A program made the position numbers and the translations under genes. From Utricularia gibba (Eukaryota; Streptophyta; Magnoliopsida; Lamiales; Lentibulariaceae), in assembly GCA_002189035.1 (NCBI GenBank), contig NEEC01000002.1:4115001-4179000 (forward strand): a stretch of DNA of 64,000 bases, given 5' to 3'. A model generated the notes under the pieces. That model ran no database searches. It was not told the DNA's origin and saw nothing but the letters and a program-made list of their open reading frames with translations. Shown here piece by piece: positions 9,771 through 56,870 of the stretch (the first letter of the stretch is position 1; every line of letters begins with the position of its first letter).

Positions 9771-9880
9771 ATTATTAGTGTGGTGTGTTGAAGAATCCTT
9801 GAGTATCCCAAGAGAATGATGACTTGTCCTAAGAGAGTAACGATGTTGAAGGGGACGAGCTCACACATGGTCTCAATGAT

Positions 9881-10116
9881 ATGGATGAGAAACTTGAATT
9901 TATAACAAAGGAGAATGAAGAGCTTCGCTACAAGTTGGAATGGTATGAGAGTCGTTGGGTATATACCGGACCCTCTTTGAGTGCCTCTGAGCCTCAGCGA
10001 AAGCTGATAATCTTGAATGTCAATGGTGTGCTTGTAGACATCGTGTATAGAGCTGGACCGTCAAGGTCACGAATCCCTCCAAATAAAATTATATATGGCC
10101 GATCAGGTACTAAAAC
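9881..10116 (+). pseudogene. Fragment resembling an FCP1-like (HAD) phosphatase gene
   Basis: The frame encodes a short coiled-coil-like start (EFITKENEELRYKLEWYE), then QRKLIILNVNGVLVDI and later NKIIYGRSGTKT. The pattern KLIILDLNGLL is the N-terminal strand and catalytic loop of plant FCP1-like HAD phosphatases. Here the nucleophile Asp of the DxNG loop is replaced by Asn. Coding similarity stops at 10116, where the LTR-like repeat begins. The fragment lies inside the hAT termini, so it may have been acquired by the transposon. Too little is left for activity; the family call rests on one motif. Confidence 0.5.
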
Positions 10117-34864: not shown

Positions 34865-36175
34865 TGCAGCAGAGCATGGTGCTTTTATTTTATTTTCTTT
34901 TTTTTTCCTTCGCGTTTTAGAATAATATATTTTCTTTTTTATTATTCCTTGGCGTTTTAGAATAATATTAGCCCCAGTTGAAAATGACGGTAAATAATTT
35001 ATTGGACTACAACAATATGAATTTTGTATATATTTTATAGGGAATAGCAAATGGGCATGAGTTAGGCATAATTCATATACATAGGCCAATAAAAACAACA
35101 CATGGGTGTGGCAGCCTTGTAAAAATACTACATAGGCATGAGTTATATATAATCTATGTCCATATCTTTAATTTTCAATATAGTTTATATAAATTGTACC
35201 AGTATCTTAATTTTTAATGAAAAAATGGAAGATTTCAATATTTATATTTTTGTTAATGAAAATATACAAGATATGTATTATTAAAAGTTAAATATATTTA
35301 TTATATTATTGATATTTGATTTTTTTGATTAAAAATATTTAATATAATCTTTTAGAAAATTACAACATTTTTTTTTAATTTAGGTTTGATCGGTCAAAAC
35401 CGAATTTGATTGATCAAACCTGTTTTTGTACTAAACGAGTTTTATACCGATTTGATTTTAAACTTCATTGAAAAAAAGACTACAATGTAAAGAGCTTTGA
35501 CAAAACAATATAGATGGATTACACAATAAAGAAATAATGCAATTAATGAAGAATATGCATTTTAAGAAAGAACCAAACTTGTAATGTGGGGTGGTGAAAT
35601 ATCATATTTATATGACACAAAGAGAATTCAATGTGAAAAAAAAAAGATAAAACTTAATTCCTACTATGTGAAGATTTACAAAGTTGGATAAATGCATTGA
35701 AAATTAATAACTAACATCTCATATGTGTAATTTCACATTGCAATTGAGCAATGATGCAATTGTCAATCTCATGTGTAATTTCACATTGCAATTGAGCAAC
35801 GATGCAAATGTCAACTTGACATTGCTCTCATATTGGTTCCTCTTCTCCACCTTGAACATAAAGCTATTGTAGTTATGAAAATTATTAGGAAAATATTCTA
35901 TGATAAGTGAAATATCAACATATATGAATTTATGTAATGCACATATATGAATTACAATTTTATGATTGAGAAACAATGTCTTCAAATTTATGATGATACC
36001 TCGTAGATTTATGTCAAAAACTCATGAACTATTATGAAATTGAAATTTTGCGTATGTAAAATGATGTGAATTTTCTAATTCATATATGTTGAACATTTAG
36101 ATTTCATGTAAATATCTTCGAATATTATCGCTTAATATTTGGTAGCACATATTTTTTAGTATTTAGGAGTAGTAA
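34865..36175. other. AT-rich spacer with a palindrome and a tandem duplication
   Basis: AGGTTTGATC (35382-35391) and GATCAAACCT (35412-35421) form a perfect 10-bp inverted repeat around a partly symmetrical centre. Two ~50-bp tandem units (starting at 35718 and 35768) share tgtgtaatttcacattgc and attgagcaaNgatgcaa. No gene was recognised. Confidence 0.7.
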
Positions 36176-36179
36176 AATG

Positions 36180-37005
36180 TCTAATATTTTTCCACAAAAC
36201 TCAAGTTTTAGCATGAATTTCTATGCTTTTGTGATTTGTAGTGCAATAGTGTGTTTTATTCCTCGAAAAGAGCACAGTAAAATTGCAAAAAGTATGAAGA
36301 TAAAGCTGAAAAAAATACAATTTAATCCCAAGAAAGAAAAAAAGGGGATTTTGGAAATGATGGGAGAGAGAACAAGGGAGAGGACTTTAAAGAACGAACA
36401 ATACACTTTAGGATATCTCCCCATCATAAGAACACCAGAGAACAAGAAAGAAGATTAGGGAAAATGAGCTCCATTTCGAAGATTTCTTCTACTCTTGAAG
36501 AACACTGTTTTTAGTTGAGACTAGTTCTAGTTTTTTTACGTAAACAATTTGTTGTTTATGCTCTATTATGCATCCTATGTTGTTGTTTAACTTTCAGATC
36601 CGAATGTTGCTTAAGATATGTTATGAAAATGTTTCTCTTCCTTTATCATGAGTAGTTAAAGTACCTAGTGGTGCCTTGGTGTAAAGAGATTAATAAGTTT
36701 ATTATTCATTAAACCAAATTAACCAATTATCACATTATTTCCTTACAAACCAGGATAGATATAGAAGGAAAAAGTAGTGAAACTCACTAAACAACCCTAA
36801 TTAGAGGTAGACGAAAAATTAGGAAAAATAAAGGTTTGGGTAGACTTAGGCCTTTGCTTGTTATGTCAATGATATATGGTTTAGGTGAGATAGTTGTAGC
36901 AATTTGCATGTTAACCCTAGGAATCTCAAGGCACCATCCACTTCATCTTAAGCACAACCGAGCTCAAAATTTTATTGCTTTTCTTTACTGTATTTTATTG
37001 TAAAT
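36180..37005 (+). repeat. Athila-type LTR fragment
   Basis: Collinear in the plus orientation with the solo LTR at 24481-25591. Shared blocks include gggattttgga, accaggatagatNNaggagg, caaccctaattagaggtaga and ttttctttactgtattt. Both ends are missing, with similarity lost near 36180 and 37005. Confidence 0.7.
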
Positions 37006-37990
37006 ACTCTAACTGACAAGGAGACACCGAAATAGCCTCATGTGATTATCCCTTGTACAATTGAAAGGAAAGAGGATTACCATTGATTGTTCTCAAAATT
37101 AAATTCTACGTATGTGCTCAAATATTGCCAATGATCCATGGTGTGTACGAGGTCATTACCTGTCCAAAGTATCCCAATCATTGATAACTTACTATCTCCC
37201 TCGAACCAATAGAGTTGGAGATGGTGCTCTTTACCTTGATCTTTATCAAAATTCACAAGAAATGGCTGGCTATTCATGGATCGTGACTGAGAGACATTAT
37301 AAAAAGACTATAACATGACGTATAGTAATATGCAAAATTCGGAAGAAATTCAGTAAGAAACCGACATTAATGCTCAAGGCATGGAACGAAACTACATCTA
37401 TTCTCATAAACTAATAAGGTTTAACCATGAATGACCATGAAAATAGAAACCTAAAAGTAAGAAAAGTAAAAAGTAAGTTCAAGTGAGAAAAGTAAGTTGA
37501 GTGAAAAGTCTGATCTAAGGGTTACAAGTTTTGTTTTAATTCACTTCACGTGCATTAACTTCCTCTGCTCTCTTTTCATCATTCCTTATATCTTGTTTGT
37601 GCTGCCAGATTTCCCATTCGTGTAAGTAATTGCCTTATCATTACTGTAGACTCTCACATGTCGTAAGCTATGGGCTTTGAATAGTGTTAGTCCTCCAAGT
37701 CACGTAAAAGGCATGAAATATTAGTATCTTGTCTCCTGCAAGTTTCTTGCTATACTCCAAGACTGCTTCCTACCACATTTGGATGAAAGTATATGGAAAC
37801 AACATAAAAATGTAGATAAATAATAATAATTTGATTTTTCTAATAATATAAAATACTTATTAATAAAACTCGTAATTTGGGCGATTTAAGTCTAACTTAA
37901 CACACAATAATATAGAATAAACACGTAGAAAATGATACTTAACAATGTATTACCACAAAATTTAATTTTGAAATATATTAATGAACATTC
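37006..37990. other. Spacer without recognised genes
   Basis: Short ORFs only (for example 37077-37277 minus and 37112-37318 plus), with no recognisable family. AT-rich towards the end. Confidence 0.5.
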
Positions 37991-37995
37991 TCTCA

Positions 37996-38440
37996 TTGGG
38001 CACTATTTATGATATATAAGTGGAGCCCCACACTATTTGGGCGGTGCTTGTGTGACACAAGTGATCCCCATAACCTTATAGATGCTACATATGAGTTAGA
38101 AACAGTGGCCAGGTTTGTGTGGACACTACTTGTGACTCATATGCAGTAGTTCCCATATAGTTCTGGACATCACTTGTAAATCATAAGTAGTGTCCAACAT
38201 GTCCTAGACGTCACTTATATATCCTAAGTGGCGCTCATCACATCATGGACATTGTTTATATGTTATAAGCTGTGTGCACACAAATCTAGGAGTTGCTTAT
38301 AAGTCACAAGCAACGCCCATAGTGTCCTAGGCACTCTTTATGTATTATAAGTAGCACCCAACTCACGGTAGACGTCGCTTGTTACACATAAGCAACATGC
38401 AAAGCGATTTAGGTATTGCTTAGTACTTATAATTAATATC
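37996..38440. repeat. Array of about ten hairpin-forming repeats, ~41-bp period
   Basis: Successive units follow the pattern GGACRTYRCTTAT-N-ATAAGYRRYGYCC and are separated by about ten bases. Examples are ACATCACTTGTAAATCATAAG (part of 38167-38194, pairing with TAGTGTCC), GTTGCTTATAAGTCACAAGC (38292-38311, then AAC) and the unit at 38369-38396. Each unit is itself an inverted repeat with a 7-11 bp stem. From about 38165 the spacing is regular (units near 38165, 38207, 38247, 38289, 38330, 38371 and 38411). Earlier units are more diverged. There is no ORF. Confidence 0.85.
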
Positions 38441-38804
38441 GAACATCATTATCTATTTTAAATAGTTTTAAAATTGAAAATAGTATATGCTGCATATTGG
38501 GGGTGAGTTTGGTATTAATGTATGATATACTCCAAAATAATAATAATTCACACTAAATATATAGCTTCAAACAAAACACTGTTTATTTTTTATATCTAGA
38601 GAAAAAAACTCCTCACCCTACTCATGGATATTTTACCTTGTGTGGTTGGCATAGTTGAGAAACTAGTCTCATAGCCAACATAGTCTCCTTGTGTCGATAG
38701 ATAATGCAATGATGATCATTGGCGCACATCTCTTTGACCTAGGTTTGGTTGAGATGATGCATGATGCATTGCGTGTGGATATTATTGAGTAGATTTGGTT
38801 TGGA

Positions 38805-39960
38805 GTGTCTAATCACATCGACCTTGTTAAGGGAGAAAATCGGCATTGGGGTCGGAACCGATTTTCGGTTATGGGGTTGACCGGATGTGTCGAATCTGGG
38901 TATGGGTTTAATGTTTTGTTTGGTGCGGTTAACGAAAGTAAAGAGGAAAAAAGATTTTTTACATGGAAACCGTCGAAGAACGGAAAAACTACGAAGTTGT
39001 CGGAGCTCACCGAAAAATATCTTTGCTAGATGAAAGTGAGGGAAAAATGCAGGTTTGAGGGCTTAGAGTCCAACCGTTTCCTCTTTAGAATTTCCCCTAC
39101 TTATAGAAGAGGTCAATCTGACTGAATCCTGAATTCTGCAGATGTCGGCTGCTTTCTGTGTCTATACTATTATCTTGTTTTTCATATAACTGCCACCTAC
39201 ACTGCCGTCATTTGGCCACTTTTCAGACTATGCAATACGGCTGCTGCTGTCAAGTCTCTGACACATATCGGTCTGTCGGTCGACGCCAGATTGTCAGAAC
39301 ACCTTTCAGCACCTTTTCAGTAGCCGATTAATTGCATCTGATTTATACCCCATCATTCAACCCCTCTGATTTGCCGATGTTGATCTTTTCAAGGCAAGTG
39401 GGTGAATCAGGTATCAGTCGCCGATTTCGGGCATACCGCTTTCTCATGAGTAAGTCTTAAACCAATTTAGACCGATTTCCTCACCATGCGTCACCTCCTG
39501 AGCGCGCCACGTTTTTTGTCACTCATTTTGGGCACCTCAAACGACGTGCGTTTTGTCTTCCGAATATCTCTCTTATAAATATGCGCTCTTCCCGTCATTT
39601 CTCCCCTTTTCTTTCTCCGTTCATCCGTGAGATTTCAGCGCAGTTCGTGCCCCATCGTGCTCGTCCGCCACCTTCACCACCGTAAACCTGCTGGAAACTG
39701 CGATTTTTTCAGGTATCATTCGGTTCTTCGCCCTTTTCATTCGACTTCTTGGGGTTTGATCGGGTTCCCCCTTTTCCTTCTGAGTTCTACCCTCCTTCAG
39801 GTTTCCGCTTCATTCTAGGGTTTGATCCTTCTTTTGTTTTTCCGAAAATGGGTAGAAGATCTGGCAAGTTGAATATCCCTTGTCTTCACATTCGATACTC
39901 GATCCCCCGATGAGTACCAAATTTCTCATGCTCAGGATACCGAAATCCCTTGGGGGGTAG
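38805..39960 (+). repeat. Repeat C, copy 1 (promoter-like part)
   Basis: The reverse complement of 12492-13713. It carries TATAAAT at 39574-39580, about 275 bp before an ATG at 39849 that opens MGRRSGKLNIP. The minus-strand frame 38813-39010 aligns with the plus-strand frame 13480-13713 of copy 2. It is unclear whether this is an LTR or the promoter region of a DNA transposon. Confidence 0.65.
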
Positions 39961-40721
39961 GCGAGAGCGCTCTCCCCCCTTTCAGCCTCCCGATTCCTCT
40001 CGCCTATTTTGAAAGCGGTTTATGCTTTCCTCTTCACCCTCTGATTGTCCGCTTTCTTCATATCTTCACAATACCGCTTTACTGCCTTCCCTCGAATTCC
40101 ATCTTTTACTTCACTACCTTTTTATTCTTTTTGGCTGGTATGGATTCGGCTATGACTTTAGTAGACTTTCTTCAACTTTTTAAGATAGCCATTCGTAAGG
40201 CAAAGTCTCTGATGGATGGCCGATCTCATTTCAAGTTCCACCGATTTGAGGACAATCCTAACTTCTTTGTGAAAGCTCTTGATACCCACTACAATTGGTG
40301 GTCTTCTTTTGTCTGGGTAGCACCCCCTTTGAGTTTTCGGTGGAACTTCCTAGTTAATCCCCCAACACCCATTAGAGTGAAACTCTTTGGTGCATATCGG
40401 TCCTCTTCCGAATCCCGCGAAGTCCTATACTAAAGGCTTAGCCGAGGTTCTATCTGGTACGAATCTAGTGCCTTGATGTTTTCGAGGGAATCTCTGAAGA
40501 GGCCAGGTATTATCGGTCGTTCTCACGACCCCCACTTGCCTGATATCGTGTCTTTCGAAGGTACCAATTTGCAAAATCCTCCCTCTAGTGCTTCTCCGAA
40601 TCTTCCCCTTATTCCAACTTCTTCCTCGATTCCCCTAACTGCTCAAACCATGGCCACCAAGAAAAAGAAGAGGGTTAAGGCGCTTGCCCATAAACCCTCT
40701 AAGAAACAAAGAGGTAGTTAG
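39849..40721 (+). pseudogene. Transposon-associated ORF of repeat C
   Basis: After the MGRRSG start the frame breaks. It resumes with YFESGLCFPLHPLIVRFLH (about 39998-40054), then the frame 40131-40433 with FKFHRFEDNPNFFVKALD and WWSSFVWVAPP. A Lys-rich tail follows (frame 40473-40721, KKKKRVKALAHKPSKKQR). The FxSGLxxPLHPxxxxFL pattern and the following layout are common in plant transposon-associated proteins of unknown role. Several frameshifts and stops are present. Confidence 0.5.
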
Positions 40722-40739
40722 GTTCTGGTTCCCCAAGTT

Positions 40740-41880
40740 TCAACATTTGCAACGTGTCGTAACTGTTTTCCCGGTTTTCGGCTGCAGCTGAAGAGATGGC
40801 CTGGAGAAGTGCCCAGGAAAACTCGGTAATGGCCCGCTTTTCTACCGAGATGCATTGATAATTTAGTTGATTTAGGTCTATCAATGCATACTTCCTTTTT
40901 GCAAGTAGGGTCATGGACTAATGTAAATGGTTCTAGTGACCATCTATCCTCAATACAAGTGGTTAAATTTGATTCTCATGTATCTTAATCTGCTGATCAA
41001 TATTGACCATCCAGCATGTGTGTACACATTCAATTACCTATAAATCAGAAATAAAAGCAAGCATATATAATGAAAATGATTTGTCATATATAATGGGAAC
41101 ATAGTATGCCAAAATTTTTCTATTTACGACACTCACATGTGCCTTGAGCAACCATGACCATACATTTCTTTTGTTTATTGTTTTTCTTATGAGTAGTAAC
41201 CAAAACCTTCATTTGTGCATAATCAACTAACTTTATTGATGCATGAGAAATTGGTTTATCCCAATTTGCATATAGCTCGTGCAGTTGATCAGGAAAAACA
41301 ATGTGTCATTGATATTGATCAAGTATTTTTTTATATCTTTAGGAGAAGTAATGCCCACATTTTGCAAACTTCACTGATTCATATAAACAACAACAACAAC
41401 ATTAGTAAGTGTGAATCCTCTTATCTTTGTAGTCTAGTCTCACACTCACCTATGCCAATGCGCATAGGAGTGAATGCGTTGCTTCCATTAATACTCGGTT
41501 CTTGCACCACACCTACATCATAGTCATAGTTGTCATTTCAAATTACATGGTTAATATAGAACTAGGTAAGAGTTGGACTTGTACGGGTACAAGGGTAGCA
41601 AGCATTCTGGGAGAGGTTTCTTCAATTCTCAAGAACAAAGTGAAACGTTTTGAAACAAACGAAAGTTACAAGGAAATTTACTTGCAAATTCACCAAGGGT
41701 TTGAGGGTAAATCTGTAAAATCTTGACAATTAACTGTTACCCCTGTACTTATCTCACCTGTAACCGCAATGTAACTCCCCATTTTGCAATAGGAACATAG
41801 CAAAAACTCTGCAAAATAACTCCTAGCTAAGTCTAAAAGTTCAAAAGTAAAATAACATGAAAATAAATATAAAAACAACC
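40740..41880. other. Unassigned segment between repeat C and the Athila element
   Basis: No family was recognised. It occupies the place where the 3' internal region and 3' LTR of the minus-strand Athila element should be, so that end has been lost or replaced. Confidence 0.5.
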
Positions 41881-41949
41881 GAAATGAAACTTGGGTTGCC
41901 TCCCAAGAGCATCCTTGTTTTCAGTCCTGGACTAGACTTTGATGAAGTT

Positions 41950-42865
41950 CTACGTTGTTTCTGTGTCTCTTAGGACAAGAACTTCAACTTCTTCAGCCAA
42001 ACTATTTTGAAGATTTTCATAAAAAATCTTCAACCTATGTCCATTCACAATAAAACTTGTGTTAGTCTCTCCATCATAAACCTCCACTATTCCGTTTGGG
42101 AAAACTTCCTTCATTGTAAATGGTCCAATCCAACGAGATTTGAGTTTCCCTAGATGTAACTTCAGCCTAGATTGAAACAGCAAAACTTTCTGACCAACTT
42201 CAAAGGACCTCCTGGAAATATGCTTGTCGTGATAACTTTTAGTCCTAGATTTGAATAACTTTGAGATTTCATAAGTATCATTCCTCAATTCTTCCAGTTC
42301 TGAGAGTTGTAATTTTCTTTCGCTTGCACTGAGACTTTTATCAAGGTTTAACCTCTTCACTACCCACCAAGCCTTGTGCTCTAATGCAGCAGGTAACCTG
42401 TAAGGTTTTCCATAAACTAACCTGAATGGCGAGGTTCCAATTGGTGTTTTATATGCTGTTCGAATTGCCCACAAAGCATCCCTTAGTCTCAGACTCTAGT
42501 CCTTCCTGTTCGGGATCACCACTTTCTCCAAAGTCTGTTTGATCTCCCTATTTGATGGCTTGTACCAGACGTTGAAATGCTTCAAAACATTTCTAAAGGC
42601 CTGATTATAAAAATGCGTACCTCGGTCATTGATCAGCGCCTTAGGAGTCCCTTACTGCACAAAAATGTTGTTATGCAGAAAATTTTATGGGGAATGGCCC
42701 CATAAAATCAATGCCCCAAACATAAAATAATTCACATACCAGGATTCCTTGCTGAGGCATTTCATCCCTATTTGATAAATTTCCCACTCTTTGGCAAGGC
42801 TCACAACCCTTACAATAAGCATAACAGTCTCTAAAAATGTGATGCCAGTAGAATCCACAGTCCAA
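41950..42865 (-). pseudogene. Integrase of the Athila-type element
   Basis: The frame 42671-42865 holds the HHCC finger (WHHIFRDCYAYCKGCEPCQ) and the start of the catalytic core (YVWGIDFMGPFP). The frame 41950-42474 holds the end of the core (MWAIRTAYKTPIGTSPFRLV) and the C-terminal domain (YHDKHISRRSF, KLKSRWIGPFTMKEVFPNG). The integrase inserts element DNA into chromosomes in the nucleus. A frameshift and stops separate the two parts, and the catalytic region between 42480 and 42670 is decayed. Confidence 0.85.
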
Positions 42866-43004
42866 AATTTTTTTGGCAGTACGGTTTGGTGCATGATGGC
42901 CACCAAAGGGTCCTACATGACAAGAATTTATAATCTTAGGAATTTAAAACTCATGAACACACCTTCGAATGATGCCATCATTGCATCTCTTCCAAAGGTA
43001 AGGA

Positions 43005-43560
43005 TCAATATTTGGTGTCACTTTTCAGTTTGTTCTTCGTGCGATAATCAATTCCTAGAGGCATCACTCCCGTTGAAACAAAGTTAGCCAAGTCTGCGAA
43101 CCATGGTTCACAAATATTAGTCCTAACTGAGAATAATTGTTCATCCGGAAATGTTTCAATGATAGGACTTTCAGTCCTTTGCCCTTCCATCCTGCTGAGA
43201 TGGTCAGCAATCAAATTCTCCCTTCCAAGCCTGTCCTTAATTTCAACATCAAAGAGAACCCTCTGATCAGCCGTGGTTTGGTCTCCTTCTTCTCCATCAA
43301 GTGTTTTACAGCCGAATGATCAGTGTATACCACAACTTTGCTGCCTAAAAGATAGGAACGAAATTTTTCCAAAGCAAATATCACAGTCAAAAATTCTCTT
43401 TCAATCACAGTGTAATTTTTCTAGACTTCATCTAATGTTTTGGAAGCATAAGAAATAACATGATGTTTTCCTTCAATTTTCTATCCTAAAATTGCTCCTA
43501 CAACATGATTATTAGCATCACACATAATTTCGAAATCATACCTCCAATCTGGTGGTTGCA
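43005..43560 (-). pseudogene. RNase H of the Athila-type element
   Basis: The frame 43211-43408 reads [33 protein letters not shown] and KPRLIRG, the typical end of the RNase H domain. MIADHLSRMEG (frame 43005-43214) follows and leads to the integrase. The enzyme removes RNA from the RNA-DNA hybrid during replication of the element. Confidence 0.85.
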
Positions 43561-43575
43561 TCACAAAAGCAGTAG

Positions 43576-44517
43576 TCATAGTCTCTTTCCTAGAAATAAC
43601 ATCAATCTTAGAAAAATTCTGAATAAATCTCCGTAAAAATCAACATGCCTCATAAATGATCTCACATCCTTAACATCAATGGGATACGGTAATTCAGTCA
43701 TAATCTCAATTTTTGCTTTGCCTACCTCAATACCTTTCCTAGAAATAACATGGTCAAGCACAATTCCATGATCAACCATAAAATGGCATTTTTCAGAATT
43801 AAGAACAAGATTTTTTTCAACACATTTTTGCAATACTTGATCCAAATGGTGTAAACATGACTCATAATTCTCTCCATATATTTTAAAATCGTCCATAAAA
43901 ATTTCAATAAAATCCTCACCTAAGTTTGAGAAGATGCTGGTCATACACCTCTGGAAGGTAGCAGGGGCATTGCACAACCCAAAGGGCATCCTTCTATAGG
44001 TATAAGTTCCAAATGGACAAGTAAAAGTTGTCTTGTCTTGATCCATACCTGAAATTGCAATTTGGTTATATCCACAATAACCATCTAAAAAGCAATAAAA
44101 AGATTTTCATGCTAATTTTTCAAGCATTTGATCAATGAAAGGTAAAGGGTAATGATCCTTCTTGGTCACTTCATTCAATTTCCTATAGTCTATGCACACT
44201 TTCCACACATTTTGGATTCTTTGTGGCACCTGTTCTCCCTTCTCATTCTCCACCACTGTCATACCAATTTTCTTGAGCACCACATGGATTGGACTCACCC
44301 ATTTACTGTCTGTGATGGAATAGATAATACCTACATCATGAAGTTTGACAATTTCCTTCTTTACCACTTCGATCATGTTGGGGTTGAGGCATCTTTGTGG
44401 CTGGCGAACTGGTTTAGCTCCATCTTCTAATAGAATCTTGTGCATACATACTGAAGGAGAGATGCCTTCAATATCTGCAAGGGTCCAACCAATTGCCTTA
44501 TTCTTTCTGATAAGCAC
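43576..44517 (-). pseudogene. Reverse transcriptase of the Athila-type element
   Basis: The frame 44107-44517 carries the fingers (WTLADIEGISPSVCMHKI, VCIDYRKLNEVTKKDHYPLP). The frame 43576-44046 carries the palm, with FGLCNAPATFQRCM and the active-site box IFMDDFKIYG, then LNSEKCHFMV. The two are separated by a short decayed stretch, including in-frame stops near 44050-44106. The FMDD residues are intact. Confidence 0.9.
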
Positions 44518-44685
44518 CTCTAGCAGTCACGATTCTTGGTCTAAGCTAAGACTATTACAGATGATAACAGGGTTGTTCATTTCTTCATCCAAGAATGCGT
44601 ACTTCAGGTGTGTGGGCAGTGGCTTCAACTCAGCTGTTCTCTCCTCCAGGGTCTTGATTTGCATAGCATTCACTTGTTCTGACCC

Positions 44686-45381
44686 TTATTCAGCTTCCAC
44701 TCTTGCAAAAAATGATTCCTCATGCTCTTCTTCCTTCTCTTGAATGACCTTCTCAAAATGCTCCTCAACCAATTTATCCATGACGTCCACTGAGCATAGA
44801 CTCTCAAGGATGATGGTTGTATCCCTTGAACTTCCAGCAGGCATATTCACCACATAGAAGTCTGTTGGAAACACTAGCAGCTCAATCTTCACTAGAACAT
44901 CTTCAACCAAGCCTTTTGGAGAAATAACTCTTCGGTCAGCAAGCTCAATTTGCACTCCTGAGGCTTATAGAGATCCTAACCTGAGAGTCTCATACATAGA
45001 AAATGACATCAAGTTTATAGAGGCTCCTAGGTCAGCCATTGCTTTCCTGATGTTCAGGTCGCCTATTTTGCAAGGAATAAAAAATGTTCCAGGATCCTTG
45101 CGTTTTTCAGGTAGCTTCCAAGTCAAAAGGGCTGAGCAACTTTCACTTAGCTTCACCTTGCCTTTTTCCTTCATTTTTGGCTTTGACATATTGAGCTGCT
45201 TAAGGTACTTCACGCTTTTAGGCACTAAGTCAATACACTCCAACAATGTCAAATTTAATTGGGTATTACCCAAAGCTCTCAACATTTTTTCTTTCTCATT
45301 TTGCTCCTCTCTCACTTTCAGCGTTCCTAGAAATGGTGGTGGGGTTACTTTTACCATGAGAGGTTCTGTAGCAATTTCCAC
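44686..45381 (-). pseudogene. Aspartic protease region of the Athila-type element
   Basis: The frame 44965-45381 has TFFIPCKIGDLNIRKAMADL followed by GASINLMSFSMYE. In Athila proteases the active-site triad appears as DLGAS-type variants, and here it reads DLGAS. The frame 44686-44955 continues with LADRRVISPKGLVEDVLVKI and FYVVNMP, the second half of the fold. It would cleave the gag-pol precursor. A stop at 44962-44964 divides the two. Confidence 0.8.
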
Positions 45382-45899
45382 CTTCTATTCTTCAGCATCT
45401 CTTTCCACCACAACTTCATATTCTTCTCTCGCCGCTAAATTACTCTCAATTTGGACTCATTCTCTTCCAGGTTTTTCTTTTCTGCTTCTCAATGTCATTG
45501 CGCTGATATTTTGTCCTTCTCTAGAGTTGGGATTCTATTTGGCTTGCGACAGTAGGCTTCCTTTTTGCTTCAGTTCCCTAACCTCTGTTGCTAGCTGAGT
45601 AACTTGAATTTCCAGATTCTTGATAGCTTGTTAGTTCTCAGCTTGGTTTCTGATGGATTGGATCATAAAAATCTTCAAAATATCCTCCAATGAACTTCCA
45701 GAATTTCCTCCCGAATTATTCTGGTTTGGAGGCTGAAAGTGCTGTTGCATCTGTTGGTTTGGTTTGCGAAATGGTGGAGCTTGATAAGAACGTTGCTGCT
45801 GCTCCTAGAAATTTTGCTGAAATCCTTGCTGTCCAGCAAATGAACTCTCACCCTAGTAAGAATTATCATTGTTACTTCATCTGAAATTCGAATGATCCC

Positions 45900-46967
45900 T
45901 CCATCCAGGATTTAGGTGTTCAGTAGGGATCATATTTCTTCCTTTGTGGCTCCATATATCCCATAGCTTTCATATGCTCCTCCTCCATCAATTCGAGACA
46001 TTTATCAGCAATATGTCTCATCCTGTGGCAGTTCCTACAAGGCATATTTTTAGCTTGGAATAAAAATAACTCCTTCATCATCTTACATATGTCATCCACA
46101 TTTTTCATCAGCTCACTTTCTGATGACTTTGGCTTGCATTCTAGCTCATAGACTGTTCTGTTTGACACTTGCTTCCTAATGATGTGCCTGAAGTGCTCAG
46201 CCAACTCCTCAAGCAATGCAAGAGCCTATGTGGGAGTCTTTTTCCTCAAAAACCCACCTACTACAGAATCCACCATAGCTCTATCTGTGCATAGAAGTCT
46301 ATCATAAAAATATTTGACCAATGCATTGGTCTGAAATCCATGATGTGGGTAGTATCCTAGCAGATGATTAAAACGCTCTCAATATTTATGTAAAGATTCA
46401 CCATTTGACTGCTCAATGTCATTGATTTCCTTATTCCTTCAGCCGTTGAAGCAGGGAAATATTTGCTGAGAAATACTTTCTTCATCCCACTCCAATCTTT
46501 GATGCTCTCAGGCTTCAAAGAGTTGAATCACTTTTTTGCACTTCCTTCTAGTGTAAATTGGAATCCCCTCATACATATGGCATCCTCAGTCATCCCAGCA
46601 CTCTTAAAAGATGTGCAAATAGAGGTGACATTATCAAGATGTTCATGTGGGTTTTCACCCACTTTCCCATAATATTAAGGTAGAAAATTAATCATAGATA
46701 GCTTTAATTCGTTGGCTATGTCATCAGAAAACCTGATACACAACCCCTATACGTATGGTCAATTGCATCAAGTTCATTCAGGGTCTTCTCCTGTTCCGCC
46801 ATGATAAAATTAGCTTGAGTTACAATAGGGAGTCTGCTCAACCTTGCTGCTTCTCTCACCCTTGTGCAGTTCTTGCTGATAGGTCTCTCGATTTCTGGAT
46901 AGATAACAAGATCGCCTACACTAGAAGAACGCAAATGTATCAACCAAATCTCAAAACAATTAAACAC
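45900..46967 (-). pseudogene. gag of the Athila-type element with CCHC zinc knuckle
   Basis: The start is MAEQEKTLNELDAIDHTYRG (inside frame 46716-46967). Broken frames in the 46220-46700 stretch hold the capsid-like retrotransposon gag core. The frame 45920-46216 ends with a canonical knuckle, CRNCHRMRHIADKC (C-x2-C-x4-H-x4-C). Gag packages the element RNA in cytoplasmic particles. At least three frame breaks are visible. Confidence 0.8.
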
Positions 46968-46970
46968 CGC

Positions 46971-46988
46971 TCCCCGGCAACGGCACCA
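46971..46988 (-). other. Primer-binding site, tRNA-Asp type (one mismatch)
   Basis: The minus strand reads TGGTGCCGTTGCCGGGGA, differing by one base from the perfect tRNA-Asp site at 6770-6787. It lies three bases inside the LTR end at 46992. Confidence 0.9.
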
Positions 46989-46991
46989 ATT

Positions 46992-48127
46992 TGATAAACG
47001 AGGGAAAGGAAAGCATCTTCAGAAGACATCTTAATCAATATATTGTTCTCAAGGCTAAACAACAACATAAGATGCGTAACAGAGCATAAACAGTAAGTTT
47101 TTCAAGTAGGGAAAACGAAAACTAGTCTCAACTAAGAGCAGTGTTCATCAAGAACGAAAGAAAATCTTCAAAAGGGAAGCTTGTTCTTCTCTATCGTTAT
47201 CCCACTCCTTCTTCCCCTAGAAAAAATTCTCCAGAAAGCTATGTCGTGTGTCTCCAATGGGGGAAATCTTTTTTATCCCTCCATCTTGTCCCCCTTTTTA
47301 TCCAAAATCCTATTTTTTCATTTCTTGGATTTTGTATGTACTCCTTTTCAGACATTTTTCCTCATCCTTGCTACTACACTGTTCATATTTGGCTCATTGG
47401 GATTTGTGTTGACGACATATGCTGCATTGCTCAAAGAAAACTGTTAAATGTCATTTTCTAGTTTATTATTAGGTATTATTATGTATTAATCTAGTGTTAA
47501 GTCTCCCAATTAGGAATTATATTGATAAGTAATTGATTTTCCTAGAAAAATTCTATTTTCCTATTTTGTATATATTTTCTTTGTCTTTTTCGTGCACTTT
47601 GACCGAGATATGTCAGGAGGCAGTTGTGGAGTGTTGCGGGAGGATAGACTCTGACTTGTCGTGCCTTGCACATAACTTGGAAAAATTGTGGGTGGAAGAC
47701 TGACATGGTATGTCAGAGTTTGCAGCAATGATTGGGCGCACTCAAAGGAAAGCTGGTGGCACACACAAGACACGGTATGTCTGACTTAATCTTCCCTCAT
47801 TTACTCCCACGCACTGTTCCTGATTCTAGCACTGTTCTCGGCCTGAACTTGCAGACTACAGGCGGCAGAACAGTGCCCTTTGTCTTCTACAGCTTGGTGA
47901 CTTGCACGAAATCCAGATTTCTTCCTTGACTTTCGGGTTGCTGCTAGACTCCAAAATCGGGTTAGACATGGGGTGGACTAAATCAAAGGATTTAGCCCAC
48001 TAATACACCAAAAATCATATTTTACCTAATCAAATAAAAATACTAAAAATTATAAAATTAGCATTTAAACATAATTAAAAATTTATGATTTTTCATATCT
48101 TAAAACATGAAAATTTGTCTGTTATCA
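46992..48127 (-). repeat. 5' LTR of the Athila-type element
   Basis: On the minus strand it starts TGATAACAGACAAATTTTC and ends CCTCGTTTATCA next to the PBS. Its first third matches the LTR at 61556-62930 (gggctaaatcctttgattta, accccatNtctaacccg), while its last third matches the solo LTR at 24481-25591. It may therefore be a recombinant between two LTR subfamilies. Confidence 0.75.
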
Positions 48128-49076
48128 ATTCTTCTCCCCTCCAAGGAGGAATAATACTTAGCTTCCATTTTTCGTTCTGTTTTCATGACCTTTTGTGGCT
48201 AAAACCCCTTAGTTTCTAGGAGAAAATGAAAATTTCTTCCATGTCTTGAGCACTACACTCGGTTCTTCATTGAACTCATTCCGAATTTTGCATACTTACA
48301 CACATTTTGTTGCAGTCTTTCTATAACGACTCTTATTCACGGTTCATGAGTAGCAAGCCACTCCTCACGAGTCTTGATGAAGAGCAAGGTGAAGAGCACC
48401 AACTCCAACCCTATTGGTTCGAGAGAAGTTGCGAATTGTTTGTGACCGAGGTACCGCGATAGTGGACAGGTAGTGACCTCGTGCCTGCCACTGGTCATTG
48501 GCAACAGTTGGGCACACGCGCACAATTCGGTTTTGAAGGCAATCGACGGCAAACCTCTTGTCTTCTTAATCGTCCAAGGGGGAATCACATGAGGCTATTC
48601 CTGTGCCTCCTTATCAATCAGAGTGTAAGGGAGAGTAGATTATTCCTTACTCCTAGAACCAGCTATTCGGAGGGAATCAGTGAAACAAAGTCCACTTCCC
48701 AGGAACTGCAACCCATAGTCAAGGTTCATCACTTAGATTGTAACTTTTATTTTTGCATCTCAAAGATCCCTTTTTACAAATCCGTGACAATTTGTGAAAG
48801 TTTCCTATAAAACACTTTTCGCAAAACTCAACTCCCTGATATCGATACTTGTACTACGCTCTTTTGTGTTCTATGTTTTATATATTTAAAATTTGTTGAA
48901 GAAACGACATGCAACAAAAACTATTAGAAGTAAGGTAGATTTAGTCCCAACTAAGACTAAAATAACACAACTACGTAATATGCGCAAAAATATAGAACTA
49001 GACAGTAAAACTTAATTTTTGTAACACAATATGAGTCATTTCCCTATACTCAATCACTCAAAAATATGTGTTATCA
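48128..49076 (-). repeat. Second Athila-type LTR piece upstream of the 5' LTR
   Basis: The minus-strand start TGATAACACATATTTTTGAG matches the beginning of the solo LTR at 24481, and similarity continues through cctagttctatatttttgc. Towards 48128 similarity to known copies is lost. It may be a truncated LTR into which, or next to which, the younger LTR was inserted. Confidence 0.55.
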
Positions 49077-49495
49077 CACATGCAACAGGACATGTGATGC
49101 ACATGTAAGATGGCACGTGGCATGCACATAATGATGGTCACTTGAATACATTTGATTGGCTAGACTAGTCTAAAGTAGAACAAGTTAAAACTAAATAGCA
49201 AAGTCCTTAAAGCTTGAATCCTCACATTTTACCCCAGAATAATAAATACTACGCAAAGTGGTCATAATATACAGCCCAGCCCAAATGGCCTGATTGTTCC
49301 TGGGCCTAGATTAATAATAAATTCACCCCAACAAGCAAATCAATGTAATATAGGCCCAAAATACGTTTTTCACTAAATAAATTCACTAACACTAATTTAC
49401 CCTATTTCACTTGACATTTTTACGTATTCTAACTCACCTAAATCCTTATCCCAACAGTGAAAAATAATCATAAATACTACCAATTTTGACACAAC
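49077..49495. other. Spacer without recognised content
   Basis: No ORF, repeat or motif that I can support. Confidence 0.5.
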
Positions 49496-49499
49496 ATCA

Positions 49500-50501
49500 A
49501 CGTCCATAGGTATGTGGCTCTTCAATGCCCATTATTTTTCCAAATCGCATCACAAGTGAAGCGAATCCTCCATTTGCATCCCTGCTCCTTCATCTTATAA
49601 CAATGATATTCATTGTACATCCCCTGCTACACTTTATATGATACAAATTTACGACCACTTTTGAAACTGTATTTCACCACATCATTAATGAAGACTTATT
49701 TTGATTTAAATCGTTGACGTTTGAAGAATGAAGTGGGCACTAAGTTAATGGAATATGAGATATCTCTAGAATATGAATCTTCATCTTGTAAATCATTTCT
49801 AATAAAATTAGAAGGTGCTCAATGTGTGTCATCAATATCAGTTGATTCATGATTGAAAAAATCTTGTTTCCCTTCTTTTTCCTCATTTATATCCACGGAT
49901 TCCTCGATAGCCTCATTTCTTTGTACATCATAATTACAATCACAATCTTGCAACTCATCAAATAAAATGTCATTGGTGTCCAATTGGTCAAGCATATCAT
50001 CGTCGTCTTTTCACACAAAAAATAATCAAAATGAAGTAATATCTACCAATGGAATACAATTAAAGCATGGATATTTTAAAATTTTAGGGATTTCATCATA
50101 CCATCTTTTTGTGCATTTTTAACATTCTCAACATTCAAGTCACCATCAAACCCCACATTCTGCACTTCCACTACCTTTGGAACTTGATGAACAAAAATAT
50201 AAAATCTCAAATGTGCATGTGTCAGATTGAAAGCATATAATAAATCATGGTTGGAGCTAATACCCAGAATTTGTGTACCACCAAAAGAAGAGTCATAAAA
50301 TTGAATACTTATTTAAATTTCAAATTGGATTGGATATACATCATATATTGAATATAATTCTTCTCACAGACGACTCAATGATATCATGCCATTAAAACTT
50401 TGAATGCACACTGGTGGCATATCATATGCTATATAATTGTTGGGATATTCAATCACATTACCTCCATAGAAAATTTTTTCACTGATAATAATTGAATCCA
50501 T
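49500..50501 (-). pseudogene. Mutator-like (MULE) transposase N-terminal relic
   Basis: From an ATG at 50501 the minus strand reads MDSIIISEKIFYGGNVIEYP, a typical MULE start, and stays in frame for about 120 codons apart from two stops. After a probable intron (about 49990-50090) come an acidic stretch and YNEYHCYKMKEQGCKWRIRF, the first half of the Cys/His DNA-binding domain of MuDR-type transposases. The catalytic domain is absent. It has few lesions, so decay is relatively recent. Confidence 0.7.
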
Positions 50502-50878
50502 CTACTTACCTGCAATAGCTGAAATTAACTCTAGAATGAGAAAGAAGAAGGGAGGTGGATGAGTGTACAATTCACGAGGGGCAACATTTATATGATACAA
50601 AAGCACAATGTTGGGTAACAATGTAGGGACACCATGTCACGAGATATCAACTAATTAGACATATTACTTTTATAAAAGATTGGATGGGACTATACTTATA
50701 CTTTATATCACATCATTGTTTTAAATAATTGATACAATAAGACATGTGACATGGTCAATCATGTATATTAAATAACATAAGCTAGGAGGTTACTAATGGA
50801 TTGAACACTGTTTACTATCAATAACTAGAATCTAAAACCAACTATGTGCTATCTATTATTGTTGAGAAGCCCTAAGAT

Positions 50879-52032
50879 GTGTTTGAATGCTTCTTGTTTT
50901 CTGCAAGCAGCACTCACATGCATCTCGGCAATGTTTACCTCTGTGAGCATGAGGGATGGACGATAATTTTAGTGAAAGCCTTTGAAGTTGGCTTAAAATT
51001 TTCTTTGAACCCATTTTTAATCCATCTATTCACCCATCGAAATCTTCCATTCGATGCTCTTACACCTTCAGCTTTACTTCTGGTTTTTACTTTTCTTCAA
51101 TTTTCGAATGAAGAAGGAATTGAACCAACTATAGTTTGTTTCCTTTACATTGTACAATGGAAGAGTGATCCTCAATCTAGTGGATGGTATTTTCAAACCT
51201 ATAATCACAAGAAATTATTCTCTGTGGCATCTAGAGCTTTTGATAACAAGTGTAAGTATAACATCATTGTTATATCATCAAGTTATGCTAATTGGTCATT
51301 TCCATTTTTATACCTGAGAGGCAAAGCCATTAATACTGATCATGTTTTTTATTTGCTCCATAATGAGGAATATGAGGATATGAAGTCATCTTCACCAAAA
51401 GAATTACCATTGGCAATAGATAAAAAACAAGTCTCAATAGCTTAGGTGCTTAGGAATGAATGTCCCAGGTAATGTATGTTTTTTCATTTATGCTCATCAA
51501 CAATAACTACAAATATATCACATGCCGGATTACATCATATTTGAGGAGTTTCGGAATGGAATCAGGTAGAAGAGGAGCCAAGATGGGGCCATCGAAAATA
51601 GAGAGCACAACAACAACAAATTGATGAAGAAGGTGAAAATGAGGACATGGAGGAAGAAATCAAGGAATAGAGTAGCATGCCAAACATTCCAACTTCTTCT
51701 AAAATAGAAAACCTCAAAAGAAAGGTGCAAGAAAATGAGCCATCGTTGAAGATCTCAAGAATGCTAAAGAGGAGTTGATTGGTGTTAAGAATACACTGCA
51801 AGTCTTAAGAAAAGAAGTAGAAAAATTGAACAATGAGTTGACAATTCAAAGGTCAAAAGTGAAGGCATCTAATGCAACAAATAATAGGTTACAGAAGCAG
51901 TTAGACAATGCTAATCATCTATGGAAGGAAAAAGAGGGGCAAATATATACATTGAACGTGCCCCTTGAAACGACTCCAATTCCAATACAAGTGGTTTATA
52001 CTGAAGAATATGCATATCATTCTAGAAGTTGA
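50879..52032 (+). pseudogene. Transposon-associated ORF with coiled coil
   Basis: The frame 50879-51445 (188 codons) contains WTIILVKAFEVGLKFSLNPF, LPFDALTPSALLLVF and WYFQTYNHKKLFS, the arrangement found in many plant transposon-associated proteins (compare the repeat C ORF). After a gap with stops, the frame 51775-52032 encodes LRKEVEKLNNELTIQRSKVK and further heptad-like sequence, a coiled coil. The minus-strand MULE relic nearby may or may not belong to the same element. Function unknown. Confidence 0.55.
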
Positions 52033-52139: not shown

Positions 52140-53635
52140 ATTATTAGAAATGACTAATTTTTCATATATTGGTTTTTGGTGATTTTGTTTGATATATTGA
52201 AAGAATGCTTCGTTATTGATCTATTTTTCTTTATATTAAAAATGTATCACTCTTCTAGTTTACAATGATTTTTGAAGAGTGCTTAAATAAAAATTAGTAA
52301 TAGACATCTATATCCTATTTCTGGGCATAGACCTCTAGTGTGCACATTGGTGTCTATATAGAAACTATGTGACCCTTCCGTATTATTGTGTTTCCGAAAG
52401 TGTGTGGGATACATATGATTCAAAAACCAAAATTGGGGAAAAACAATTCTTTATTTTTTTATGGACCACTTATTTCATATAAATAATTGTTTTATTCTGT
52501 GATGTATAATATATGTGGATATATATATGATTTAATTTAATTCATCTATGATAATGTTTATATTTTGGTTAGTTGATTATTCAAAAGATGTGTAATATCT
52601 TTTATGTTCATCAAATTTTTGAGAATTCAATGGTAAAAATCAATCCCATAATACATTGTAATTAAATACATGAAATGATCATCTGTCAAATTTCAGTGGG
52701 GCGAGATGGCCATATTTTAAATTAATCTCATTCTAATGAAATGAGGAAGAAAAAAAAAATGAGATCAAAAAGATCATTTCAGGAATTAAAGTGTGGTTTT
52801 TTTGGGGATGAAGAACAACCCAAAATAAAAATGAAATGAAGAAATTGAAGAACACTTAGTTTACTATTCATCATCTTTTTGCATTTATTACTATAAACAT
52901 ATTTGCTATGATCTTTTATGTTTTACCTTATTTCGTATAAATTGTGTCTATGTATTAATAGTTCTAGTTTAGAATTTATTTTTTATCATGATAAACATAA
53001 TACATTAACTTTAATATAACCAATACTTAGCTTCTTGTGATTGACCTTAATTCTACTACATAATATCTTCTAAATTGTATTTATTAATAGTTAGATTTTA
53101 TAAATTTATTTGATATGAAAAATGAAATATTATAATGACCCTAATTTTTTATTTATAAATCAGGAATCTTTATCCCTCAATTTACTTAAACTCATCGATT
53201 TTCTTATTTCCCACATCAATTTCACATGAATCGTTTTCTACATCGATTGGCGTCTTTGTTCACATCAATTTCATAGGAATCATTATTCCTCAAATTCCTT
53301 AAAATCTTGGATTTCCTTAGTTTCCGCGTCAATTTCACATTTCACATGAATCGCTTTCCACATCGATATTACTCTTTGTCCCCATCAATTTCATAGGAAT
53401 CATTATCTCTTATCCCTCCATCTTATTGTGTTCTCAATGAATTCATTATCATCTCCAATTTTATCATTTTCCATATCATCCACGTGTTTGTTTTGTTTGT
53501 GACAAGGGTTTTTCGAAACTACAATCAACAAACATTTTCAAATTAAAATATTAACTTCACACACAATATAATACTGAAAATTATGATGAAAATAATAATA
53601 AGCATTTTCAGGAAACAAAAACTGCTGAGGATTAA
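52140..53635. other. AT-rich spacer with a ~120-bp tandem duplication
   Basis: Two adjacent units (about 53171-53285 and 53286-53405) share acatcaatttcacatgaatc, catcgat and catcaatttcataggaatca. The second unit has a short extra atttcac. The rest is AT-rich without genes. Confidence 0.65.
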
Positions 53636-53761: not shown

Positions 53762-54259
53762 CTAAACAAAGACAAGGCGGAAGCTGCATTGCTCTGTTCG
53801 CAAGTTGCAGCGGCGTGGGAGTTCTCTGGCCTTCTCATACACCTCCTCCGATCGCCCCCTGCCGCCGACGATGCCTCCCCATCCCTGCCCCTGTTGCTGC
53901 TGCTGCGCTCGTTGAGCCACTTGCTTGATTGCTTCGCATTGGCATTGCTCCTCGAAGTTCCTCAATTCTTCGCAGCATTCTCTCAGACTCTGCTCCTGCT
54001 CCTCAAACGGCTTCTCCACAAGTTCCTCTCCTCGGCCGTACCCCCCGCGGCGCGGCTGAGAAAGGTACCTCTCACAGCTCTGGAGACGGGCGCGCACCTG
54101 TCCCTGGACCTGCTGGCGGCACCGCTGCTGGCTCTCCATCTCTCGACCTTCCTCGGAAAAGGTGGTGGTGGTGATTGTTGTGGTGTAGGAGTTGGCAGTG
54201 ACGACTGCAAGCATCGCCATGGCAACGAGCGCTGCAACTATGGGCCTGTGGTGAGCCAT
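53762..54259 (-). CDS. 2S albumin seed storage protein
   Basis: An intronless gene for 165 residues. It has a signal peptide (MAHHRPIVAALVAMAML..., cleaved near Ala22), a short Thr-rich propeptide (SYTTTITTTT), a small-subunit region (QQRCRQQV...LQSCERYL) and a linker. The large subunit contains LRECCEEL, EEQCQCEAIKQV, a poly-Gln stretch and LPRRCNLRTEQCSF. The eight cysteines follow the conserved C...C...CC...CxC...C...C pattern that forms four disulfides. The precursor enters the ER and is processed in protein storage vacuoles of seeds; members are common food allergens. N- and C-terminal motifs resemble sesame-type 2S albumins. Length is normal for the family. Confidence 0.95.
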   Translation of the reverse strand: MAHHRPIVAALVAMAMLAVVTANSYTTTITTTTFSEEGREMESQQRCRQQVQGQVRARLQSCERYLSQPRRGGYGRGEELVEKPFEEQEQSLRECCEELRNFEEQCQCEAIKQVAQRAQQQQQGQGWGGIVGGRGRSEEVYEKARELPRRCNLRTEQCSFRLVFV

Positions 54260-54316
54260 TGAAAGTGCTTGTGTTGGTGAAGGAGTGAGTGTCTGGGAGG
54301 AGGAGAAAGCTGGATC

Positions 54317-54544: not shown

Positions 54545-56461
54545 TTACCAATAGTCATTGCAAGAACAAGTGCCACTGGCAAAATGGTGAAAACGAGTGG
54601 CATCTCTGACCACAAACCGATGATCAGAGACTTGGGTGACTGCTTTTACGAACGCATGGCACTCGTCACATATCCTCAAGTTCTTGATCACCAAAATTTC
54701 TGCGCCTGCGTCTGCCTCGAGAAGCGCAAATGCGATGGCCAACCTTTCACTGTGTGCAGTCGCAGCGGACTTGCTGCTAGCGATTTGATCTCCGGGACCA
54801 GGTGGCTCCTCCAGGGCTTCCAAAGCAGCCAACTTGGCATATATGTCTTTCGTCTGAGGGTGAGATCTATCCCCAGCTACAAAGATATGAATCTTGCCTT
54901 TGCTTTCGACGTAGCTGTAACCGGGGTCTTTCCTCAAGCCCCGTTCGTGCATCATTACGCGCATCCTCTGCACACCTTTCTTGTCGCCCGTTTCAGAGTA
55001 GATATTGGATAGCAGCACATAGTAGCCTATGTTTGTGGGCTCAATCTCAATGACATTGTTGAAAGCTAGTTCTGCTAAATCGACATTTTTGTGGATCTTG
55101 CAGGCACCCAAAAGGGCGCCCCACACCGCGCCATCTGGAGGAAACGGCATGGACTGAATGAGCTTGCAAGCATCTGCAAATCTACCCGCACGGCCTAGAA
55201 GATCAACAACGCAGGAGTAATGTTCTGAAGCAGGGAGTAAGTTGTACATCTCCATTGAATTGAAATACTTTAAGCCTTTCTCTGTAAGACCTGCATGACT
55301 ACAGGCAGCAAGAAGACATACAAAGACAGTTCCATCCGGTTGAATCTTGGCCTTGATCATTTTGTCGAAAAGATCTACAGCAATCTCTCCATGTCCATGC
55401 ATTCCATAGGAACCTATCATGGCTGTCCATGAAACCAAATTCTTTTCTTGCATGGCATCAAAAATAAACCGCGCTCTTCGTAGATTACCACACCTGGCAT
55501 ACACACTGATCAATGAATTTTTCAAAAAGGGATTGGATCCAAATCCCATATCCTCGATCTTCTTCTCCACCTCATGGCTAATGCTCTGCGCTCCAAGATT
55601 AGCACATGAAGATAAGACGCTGACCAGCGTTACCTCATCAGGGCGTACTCCAAGTGATTTCATATTATGGTAAAGATCCAAAACCTCTGTTCCAAGCCCG
55701 TTCTGTGAATACCCAGATATCATCGCATTCCATGTAATCAAACCCTTCTCAGGGATTTCAGCAAACAGCCTCTTCGCTAACAAAAGAGAGCCACAACGCA
55801 CGTACATAGACAAGAAGCAATTGGCAACAGCCACAAAGCAGGTCAACCCATATTTCAGTGACCAGGAATGAAATGACATCCCCAAAATCAAATTTGAGGG
55901 GCATAGAAAACCAGAAACCAATCCCAAAATCGTAACTTCATTAACCAGGACCTGATTAGCCATCATATTTCTTACCAAAAGCATCCCCTCATTAAGTCTC
56001 TCCCTCTGGATTAGACCTGATATGAACGCATTGTAGGAAACCGTTGACCTAACCGTTTGAGGAATTTCATGAAACACGTTGGATGCATCATGAACAGAGA
56101 AAAGCCTGCAATAAATAGAAATCAAAGCCGTCTGCACAAATGGCTCGAGGAGGCACCCTAACTTGATAACATGACAGTGAATCAACGATCCTAAAAAAGG
56201 AATCTCCAAGGCAGATGATGACTTCAGGACAAAAGGAAAGGTGAAGGCATTTGGTGAGGCACCAGACCGCATCATTTCACGGTAGAGCATCAGAGCTTGG
56301 CTATACTGGCCATGTTTAGAGAGCTCTCTCAGCTTATCGTTCCATGCCCCAATGACTGCACTGCCGCGACCAGCAGCATATCTGGTAGTAATTCTGTTAG
56401 CTTGCTGTTGAATCACTGTTTTGATGGTGCTTACAGATACTTTCTGCCTACTCAGGCTCAT
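54545..56461 (-). CDS. MEF10: PPR protein, PLS class with E and DYW domains; likely MEF10 orthologue
   Basis: An intronless gene for 638 residues. A Ser/Arg-rich N-terminus (MSLSRQKVSVSTIKTV) suggests mitochondrial import. PLS-type repeats run from about residue 40 to 450, e.g. VSYNAFISGLIQ, ITWNAMISGYSQNG and VSWTAMIGSYGMHGHGE. E/E+ motifs follow (VWGALLGACKIHKN, YVLLSNIYSETG, KDPGYSYVE). The DYW deaminase domain has HSERLAIAF, CDECH and the terminal CNDYW. His and Glu of HSE and the CxxC pair form the zinc site and catalytic centre for C-to-U editing. Order, length and motifs closely resemble what I recall of Arabidopsis At3g11460 (MEF10, a mitochondrial nad2 editing factor). Orthology is inferred. 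The stop lies only 285 bp before the 2S albumin start codon. Confidence 0.9.
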   Translation of the reverse strand: MSLSRQKVSVSTIKTVIQQQANRITTRYAAGRGSAVIGAWNDKLRELSKHGQYSQALMLYREMMRSGASPNAFTFPFVLKSSSALEIPFLGSLIHCHVIKLGCLLEPFVQTALISIYCRLFSVHDASNVFHEIPQTVRSTVSYNAFISGLIQRERLNEGMLLVRNMMANQVLVNEVTILGLVSGFLCPSNLILGMSFHSWSLKYGLTCFVAVANCFLSMYVRCGSLLLAKRLFAEIPEKGLITWNAMISGYSQNGLGTEVLDLYHNMKSLGVRPDEVTLVSVLSSCANLGAQSISHEVEKKIEDMGFGSNPFLKNSLISVYARCGNLRRARFIFDAMQEKNLVSWTAMIGSYGMHGHGEIAVDLFDKMIKAKIQPDGTVFVCLLAACSHAGLTEKGLKYFNSMEMYNLLPASEHYSCVVDLLGRAGRFADACKLIQSMPFPPDGAVWGALLGACKIHKNVDLAELAFNNVIEIEPTNIGYYVLLSNIYSETGDKKGVQRMRVMMHERGLRKDPGYSYVESKGKIHIFVAGDRSHPQTKDIYAKLAALEALEEPPGPGDQIASSKSAATAHSERLAIAFALLEADAGAEILVIKNLRICDECHAFVKAVTQVSDHRFVVRDATRFHHFASGTCSCNDYW

Positions 56462-56870
56462 GAAATCTGACCATGGAAGTAATGCCTACAATTTTACTGG
56501 CTTGTTGTTCTTTCTGCCAATCCAACATCTGTTTCCCCGAATTTCGCTTCCTCGCCAGGCTCATTTCGTATTACCGGAAAAGCAACGTAAATCAGAAACG
56601 CCGGATGGAGGTTTACCAGGCGAAGCAAAGGAAAGGAAAAAATCCCGAAGCAAGCCGAAATCACATCTGCCAAAAAAACAAAGGCACATTGCAGCACAGC
56701 AGGATATAAGTCCAACTTCAGCTTCTAATTAATCCCAACGAGTTATCAAGTTCTGGGTTTGGAAAACCACAATGCACACATCATGTGGACAACCCCAAAT
56801 GAAGATTCAACTCACAACAAATTCTACTGAATCGAAAAAGAGAGTCGATCAACGAAGCAAAAGGCAATGG

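Follow-up and report, generated by a model that had tools for sequence, protein, structure and literature searches.

The 64,000-bp stretch of Utricularia gibba DNA analyzed here (hereafter the window; C451:4115001-4179000 of a 100-Mb genome in 516 contigs) contains an array of eleven palindromic units, termed array A. This array belongs to the non-coding interior of an old and inactive Mutator-like (MULE) DNA transposon family of the type with terminal inverted repeats (TIRs). Its most probable role, to which we give a probability of roughly 0.6, is that of a row of binding sites for a DNA-binding protein encoded by the element itself; we infer the binding, the binder and the effect alike from the sequences.

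The palindromic array and its units

Array A spans positions 37991-38444. Four units of ~41 bp each begin at 37991, 38032, 38073 and 38114 and, after a 3-bp shift, seven more occupy 38158-38444, beginning at 38158, 38199, 38240, 38281, 38322, 38363 and 38404; no strand is assigned to them. The units are imperfect palindromes whose 14-bp arms enclose a short loop. When array A is compared with itself at an offset of 41 bp, the identity is 0.513; 1000 dinucleotide shuffles averaged 0.258 and reached at most 0.317, and every shuffle (n = 1000) stayed at or below 0.370 for all shifts from 20 to 129. A sequence-only reading of the window had proposed an array of hairpins with a period of ~41 bp, and the eleven units and their self-identity bear this out. 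It had also described each unit as an imperfect palindrome. This description holds, as standard pairs occupy 77% of the stem positions in the units of the window alone, compared with 25-44% when the partner arm is slid by 1-3 columns, and the stems that it cited as examples are found in array A. The stems are nonetheless imperfect, and the third, ninth and eleventh units are among those that fold poorly alone.

A palindrome pattern scan of the window returned five sites, all five inside array A, where 0.01 were expected. Tandem Repeats Finder did not detect array A because the unit copies are too diverged. The absence of a coding explanation was rightly noted before: no long open reading frame crosses the array, and the longest frame has 54 amino acids. 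The GC content of the array is 0.40, compared with 0.31 and 0.33 in its flanks.

A decayed family of MULE transposons

The same kind of array occurs at no fewer than 12 related loci of the genome, with differing unit numbers. A DNA search placed related loci on C4 (two), C1, C507, C413 (two), C451, C2, C255, C304 and others, and all examined loci that keep the region have an array at the position of array A, again with a variable number of units. The unit model recognizes 56 distinct units in eleven sources. Across the genome, the palindrome pattern matched 16 sites (0 in the control); every locus examined lay in or beside the element genes of the family, and two extra loci found by the pattern alone also adjoin such genes. 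A MITE or a satellite was rejected on this count of 16 sites genome-wide, located in loci of the MULE family where examined.

The relatives C4b, C507 and C2 encode the MULE transposase domain PF10551 (E 5e-14 in C2; 6e-15 and 1e-13 for the other matches). In C2, the match is accompanied by a SWIM zinc finger (PF04434, E 4e-5, above the cut-off), to which the window segment 41093-41416 is homologous. In the gene order of the family, the transposase lies on the minus strand, reads toward the array and ends just to its right. A second gene, to the left of the array, matches PF04195 (E 6e-11 in C2); its next segment appears FCP1-like by eye and has no Pfam match. A third gene on the right also matches PF04195 (E 3e-8 in C4b). 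Early Pfam scans of short decayed open reading frames gave mostly chance-level matches.

Left element ends reading GGGTTAATTTGAGAGAT were located upstream of the array in C507, C1 and C4a, and a right end beyond the transposase in C4b. Terminal inverted repeats are found in the C304, C2 and C1 copies, and a right TIR in the window. No clear target-site duplication of the 8-11 bp typical of MULEs emerged: the candidate at C1 is TAAAAACCT versus TAAAAATTT, matching at 7/9 bases and shifted by one base, C304 gave an ambiguous picture, and no matching repeat was found for C4b, C507 and C4a in the flanking stretches compared. The MULE terminal repeat itself holds short inverted GAGAGATGGCCATCTCTC-like repeats (L040 364-480 and L008 4280-4350). 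Subfamily 1 carries the array in the element interior, some 2.8-3 kb away from the left element end. C4b has lost its left part but retains, upstream of the transposase, an array whose 41-bp self-identity is 0.69. In C2 and C304, additional units occur in or close to the right TIR, with mirror-image counterparts on the left side; motif sites are absent from the C507 and C4b TIRs. All copies seen are decayed.

The membership in a DNA transposon suggested by the sequence-only reading is thus confirmed by the MULE transposase in the relatives and by collinear pieces of the transposase, the right gene and the TIR in the window. The search for other copies and flanking TIRs that it had recommended recovered the related loci, as well as TIRs in C304, C2, C1 and at the right end of the window element. 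Its subterminal placement of the array fails for subfamily 1, given the distance from the left end.

The copy of the element in the window

The decayed MULE occupies most of 37.95-52.73 kb, including array A, which has the 3' end of the minus-strand transposase on one side and the place of the second element gene on the other. A short element-derived left flank at 37945-37990 (AATGTATT...TAATGAACATT; unstranded, aligned to L003) is common to other copies, and 38445-38836 on the minus strand is element sequence 3' of the transposase gene, also present in the C1, C507, C413, C4b and C451b copies. We located the transposase and the right gene by protein searches with the C2 and C4b pieces. The C-terminal part of the transposase, including the SWIM-finger region, lies at 40853-41416 on the minus strand (63-69% identity to the C2 and C4b pieces) and carries stop codons, four of them within 41093-41416. 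Its N-terminal half (49528-49866, minus strand; 52-54% identity, E down to 1e-32) and its start region (50274-50522, minus strand; 52% identity, E 6e-22) follow, and these searches found no match to the catalytic segment in the window. A single unstranded palindromic unit at 50878-50918, weak in score (17 bits, E 0.028), is likely a remnant of a second array (array B) upstream of the transposase; its relative position equals that of array B in L042. The right element gene, PF04195-like and then coiled coil, lies at 51014-51999 on the plus strand, with 52-62% identity and conservation in C4b, C2, C255 and C451b; PF04195 falls below its cut-off here (E 4e-4). The right TIR (52148-52729, unstranded) ends at 52729, and its minus-strand end reads GAGATTAATTTAAAATATGGCCATCTC.

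Foreign DNA splits the element at about 38837-40851 and 41565-49493, and the left gene, the left end and the left TIR are missing. A repeat also found in C413 and C255 adjoins array A at about 37944-37957. In view of the interruptions and the missing left gene and left end, the element in the window is broken and old.

Several other features lie in or near the element. An insertion of ~2 kb interrupts the tail of the MULE at 38837-40851 and holds an open reading frame matching PF04195 weakly (E 0.66). The insertion splitting the transposase includes, at 41950-45384, minus-strand polyprotein fragments that appear Ty3/gypsy-like by eye. Related repeats in opposite orientation lie at 36135-37944, adjoining array A, and at 46992-49081, within the 41565-49493 insertion; a 1.3-kb piece similar to the former is lodged within the C413 transposase, where an apparent ~5-bp overlap would be in keeping with a solo LTR. 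Near the right end of the MULE, 53762-54316 and 54545-56485 are apparent host genes by eye on the minus strand (a 2S-albumin-like seed protein and a PPR protein). Farther away, 9866-10093 is 38% identical to exon 2 of the left MULE gene and represents a further relative of that gene, and 7881-8873 is a 330-aa open frame that appears hAT-type transposase-like by eye.

A proposed protein-binding array and its alternatives

Both arms of the units separately keep a 12-14 bp motif, TGGGCGYYGCTTAT, and the spacers are nearly random. The mean pairwise column identity is 0.604 in the arms and 0.327 in the other columns (chance, 0.259), and the true arm register was the best among all 41 rotations. Motif arrays occur at three non-coding places of the element. 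The array could be a functionless tandem repeat of palindromes that originated in a single slippage event, was inherited and has slowly been lost, as the variable unit number, the decay of the copies and the predominance of transitions among the substitutions would allow. We consider this unlikely, since the arms are far better conserved than the spacers of the same units and the motif recurs in separate arrays of both subfamilies and in TIRs. Part of the arm conservation could still stem from how tandem units propagate and not from selection on binding.

In well-kept copies, successive motifs lie ~20-21 bp apart, close to two turns of the helix, and alternate in orientation. The sites in C2 alternate at 4429-, 4449+, 4470-, 4491+ and 4511-, and those in C4b every 20-21 bp from 6496+ to 6599-. 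This alternating two-turn phasing most likely reflects sites for a protein along a single face of the DNA rather than a folded RNA. The array might instead act as RNA, its transcribed inverted repeats forming hairpins that feed small RNAs or end the transposase transcript. The consensus arms could pair across 14 bp, many units fold alone, and the transposase gene ends immediately upstream of the array. Hairpins, however, do not need alternating motifs at equal 20-21 bp spacing, arrays are in some cases situated upstream of genes or within TIRs, and an Rfam search matched no family to the array.

The lack of clear stem co-variation also speaks against RNA. The sequence-only reading had seen stem changes that keep the pairing and suggested that the fold is preserved, but swapping the arms gives nearly equal pairing. 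In 24 units of the family, pairing was 78.9% versus 78.0% after arm shuffling, with 119 of the 500 shuffles as high. In 48 non-redundant units, Watson-Crick pairing was 0.645, compared with 0.619 in global shuffles (39-44/2000 as high) and 0.630 in within-locus shuffles (169-178/2000 as high), an excess of at most 2-3 percentage points. The check for compensatory substitutions proposed with that claim therefore gave no clear excess in the family. The eleven units of the window alone showed a weak one (covariation score reached in 12 of 500 shuffles, pairing in 36 of 500), and relatedness among units can produce as much. Because transitions predominate over transversions (130:33), independent mutations in the two arms are expected to produce G-C to A-U double changes. 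Mostly, the arms in the family are without clear co-variation beyond that of shuffled arms. A structured RNA was rejected on this result and on the Rfam search, and we regard any role of the array as RNA as very unlikely. A decaying palindrome rich in transitions can thus show apparent co-variation of its stems without selection on RNA.

In our protein-binding model, the two inverted copies of TGGGCGYYGCTTAT in each 41-bp unit would present alternating sites about every 20-21 bp on one DNA face. In the active element, an element-encoded protein, either an accessory protein or the transposase, would have bound them cooperatively and controlled transcription, silencing or transposition. Tandem gain and loss would have altered the unit number, and the window copy would have decayed afterwards. 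As all copies seen are decayed, the function is not readable from activity, and structure prediction for the left accessory protein gave a poor and uninformative model (pLDDT 43). The earlier suggestion of a transposase-binding array stands as far as protein binding is concerned, which is the best reading of the array; the transposase specifically is graded lower. A transposase-binding array required for excision, like the TNPA sites of CACTA elements, is a narrower form of the binding model that we find rather unlikely. The C2 and C304 copies have units in their TIR regions too, and other MULEs carry subterminal repeats (PMC5225508), but the window-type array lies kilobases from the ends in subfamily 1, and the C507 and C4b TIRs are devoid of motif sites.

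The layout of the array resembles that of known VANC and CACTA arrays. The non-coding motif arrays of Arabidopsis VANDAL MULEs are targeted by the anti-silencing protein VANC; like the U. gibba family, VANDALs are MULE transposons with accessory genes (PMC5735166, PMC10398659), and the U. gibba family likewise has tandem repeats of short motifs in non-coding regions that vary between copies. The VANC motifs (YAGTATTAY; AGTTGTCC or AGTTGTAC) are other sequences, unlike TGGGCGYYGCTTAT, and the text on VANC targets mentions neither palindromes nor hairpins (PMC5735166, PMC10398659). In contrast to VANDALs, the U. gibba family has TIRs, and its accessory genes match PF04195 rather than DUF1985. 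Pfam scans of the fragmentary accessory open reading frames found PF04195 and a coiled coil, and neither DUF1985 nor DUF287. By this protein domain test, the array does not appear to belong to a VANC system.

In the soybean CACTA element Tgmt, subterminal motifs repeated in direct and inverted orientation could fold into numerous stem-loops and were proposed as binding sites for a TNPA-like protein (PMC2613891); the repeated motifs with a GC-rich and an AT-rich part are a further likeness (PMC2613891). CACTA arrays are subterminal, however, and here we found a MULE transposase, non-CACTA ends and, in the window, an internal array. Ends beginning with CACTA and a 3-bp duplication mark CACTA elements; the ends in this family read GGGTTAATTTGAGAGAT. 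A CACTA subterminal array was rejected on the transposase type and these ends. Muta1 and other mosquito MULEs also have repeated short motifs in non-coding element DNA (PMC5225508), but theirs are subterminal tandem repeats of 9-15 bp inside the TIR (PMC5225508). The literature compared consists of open-licence papers, and a repeat-library entry for the array-bearing family may already exist.

The family might even be a TIR-type MULE lineage with a VANC-like system of its own, in which a non-VANC PF04195 accessory protein binds helically phased alternating arrays adjacent to its own genes and regulates the silencing of the element, although we hold this specific proposal to be doubtful. The TGGGCGYYGCTTAT array gives a defined motif for binding work. 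A separate MULE lineage having other accessory genes together with a two-turn palindromic array would suggest repeated evolution of such arrays.
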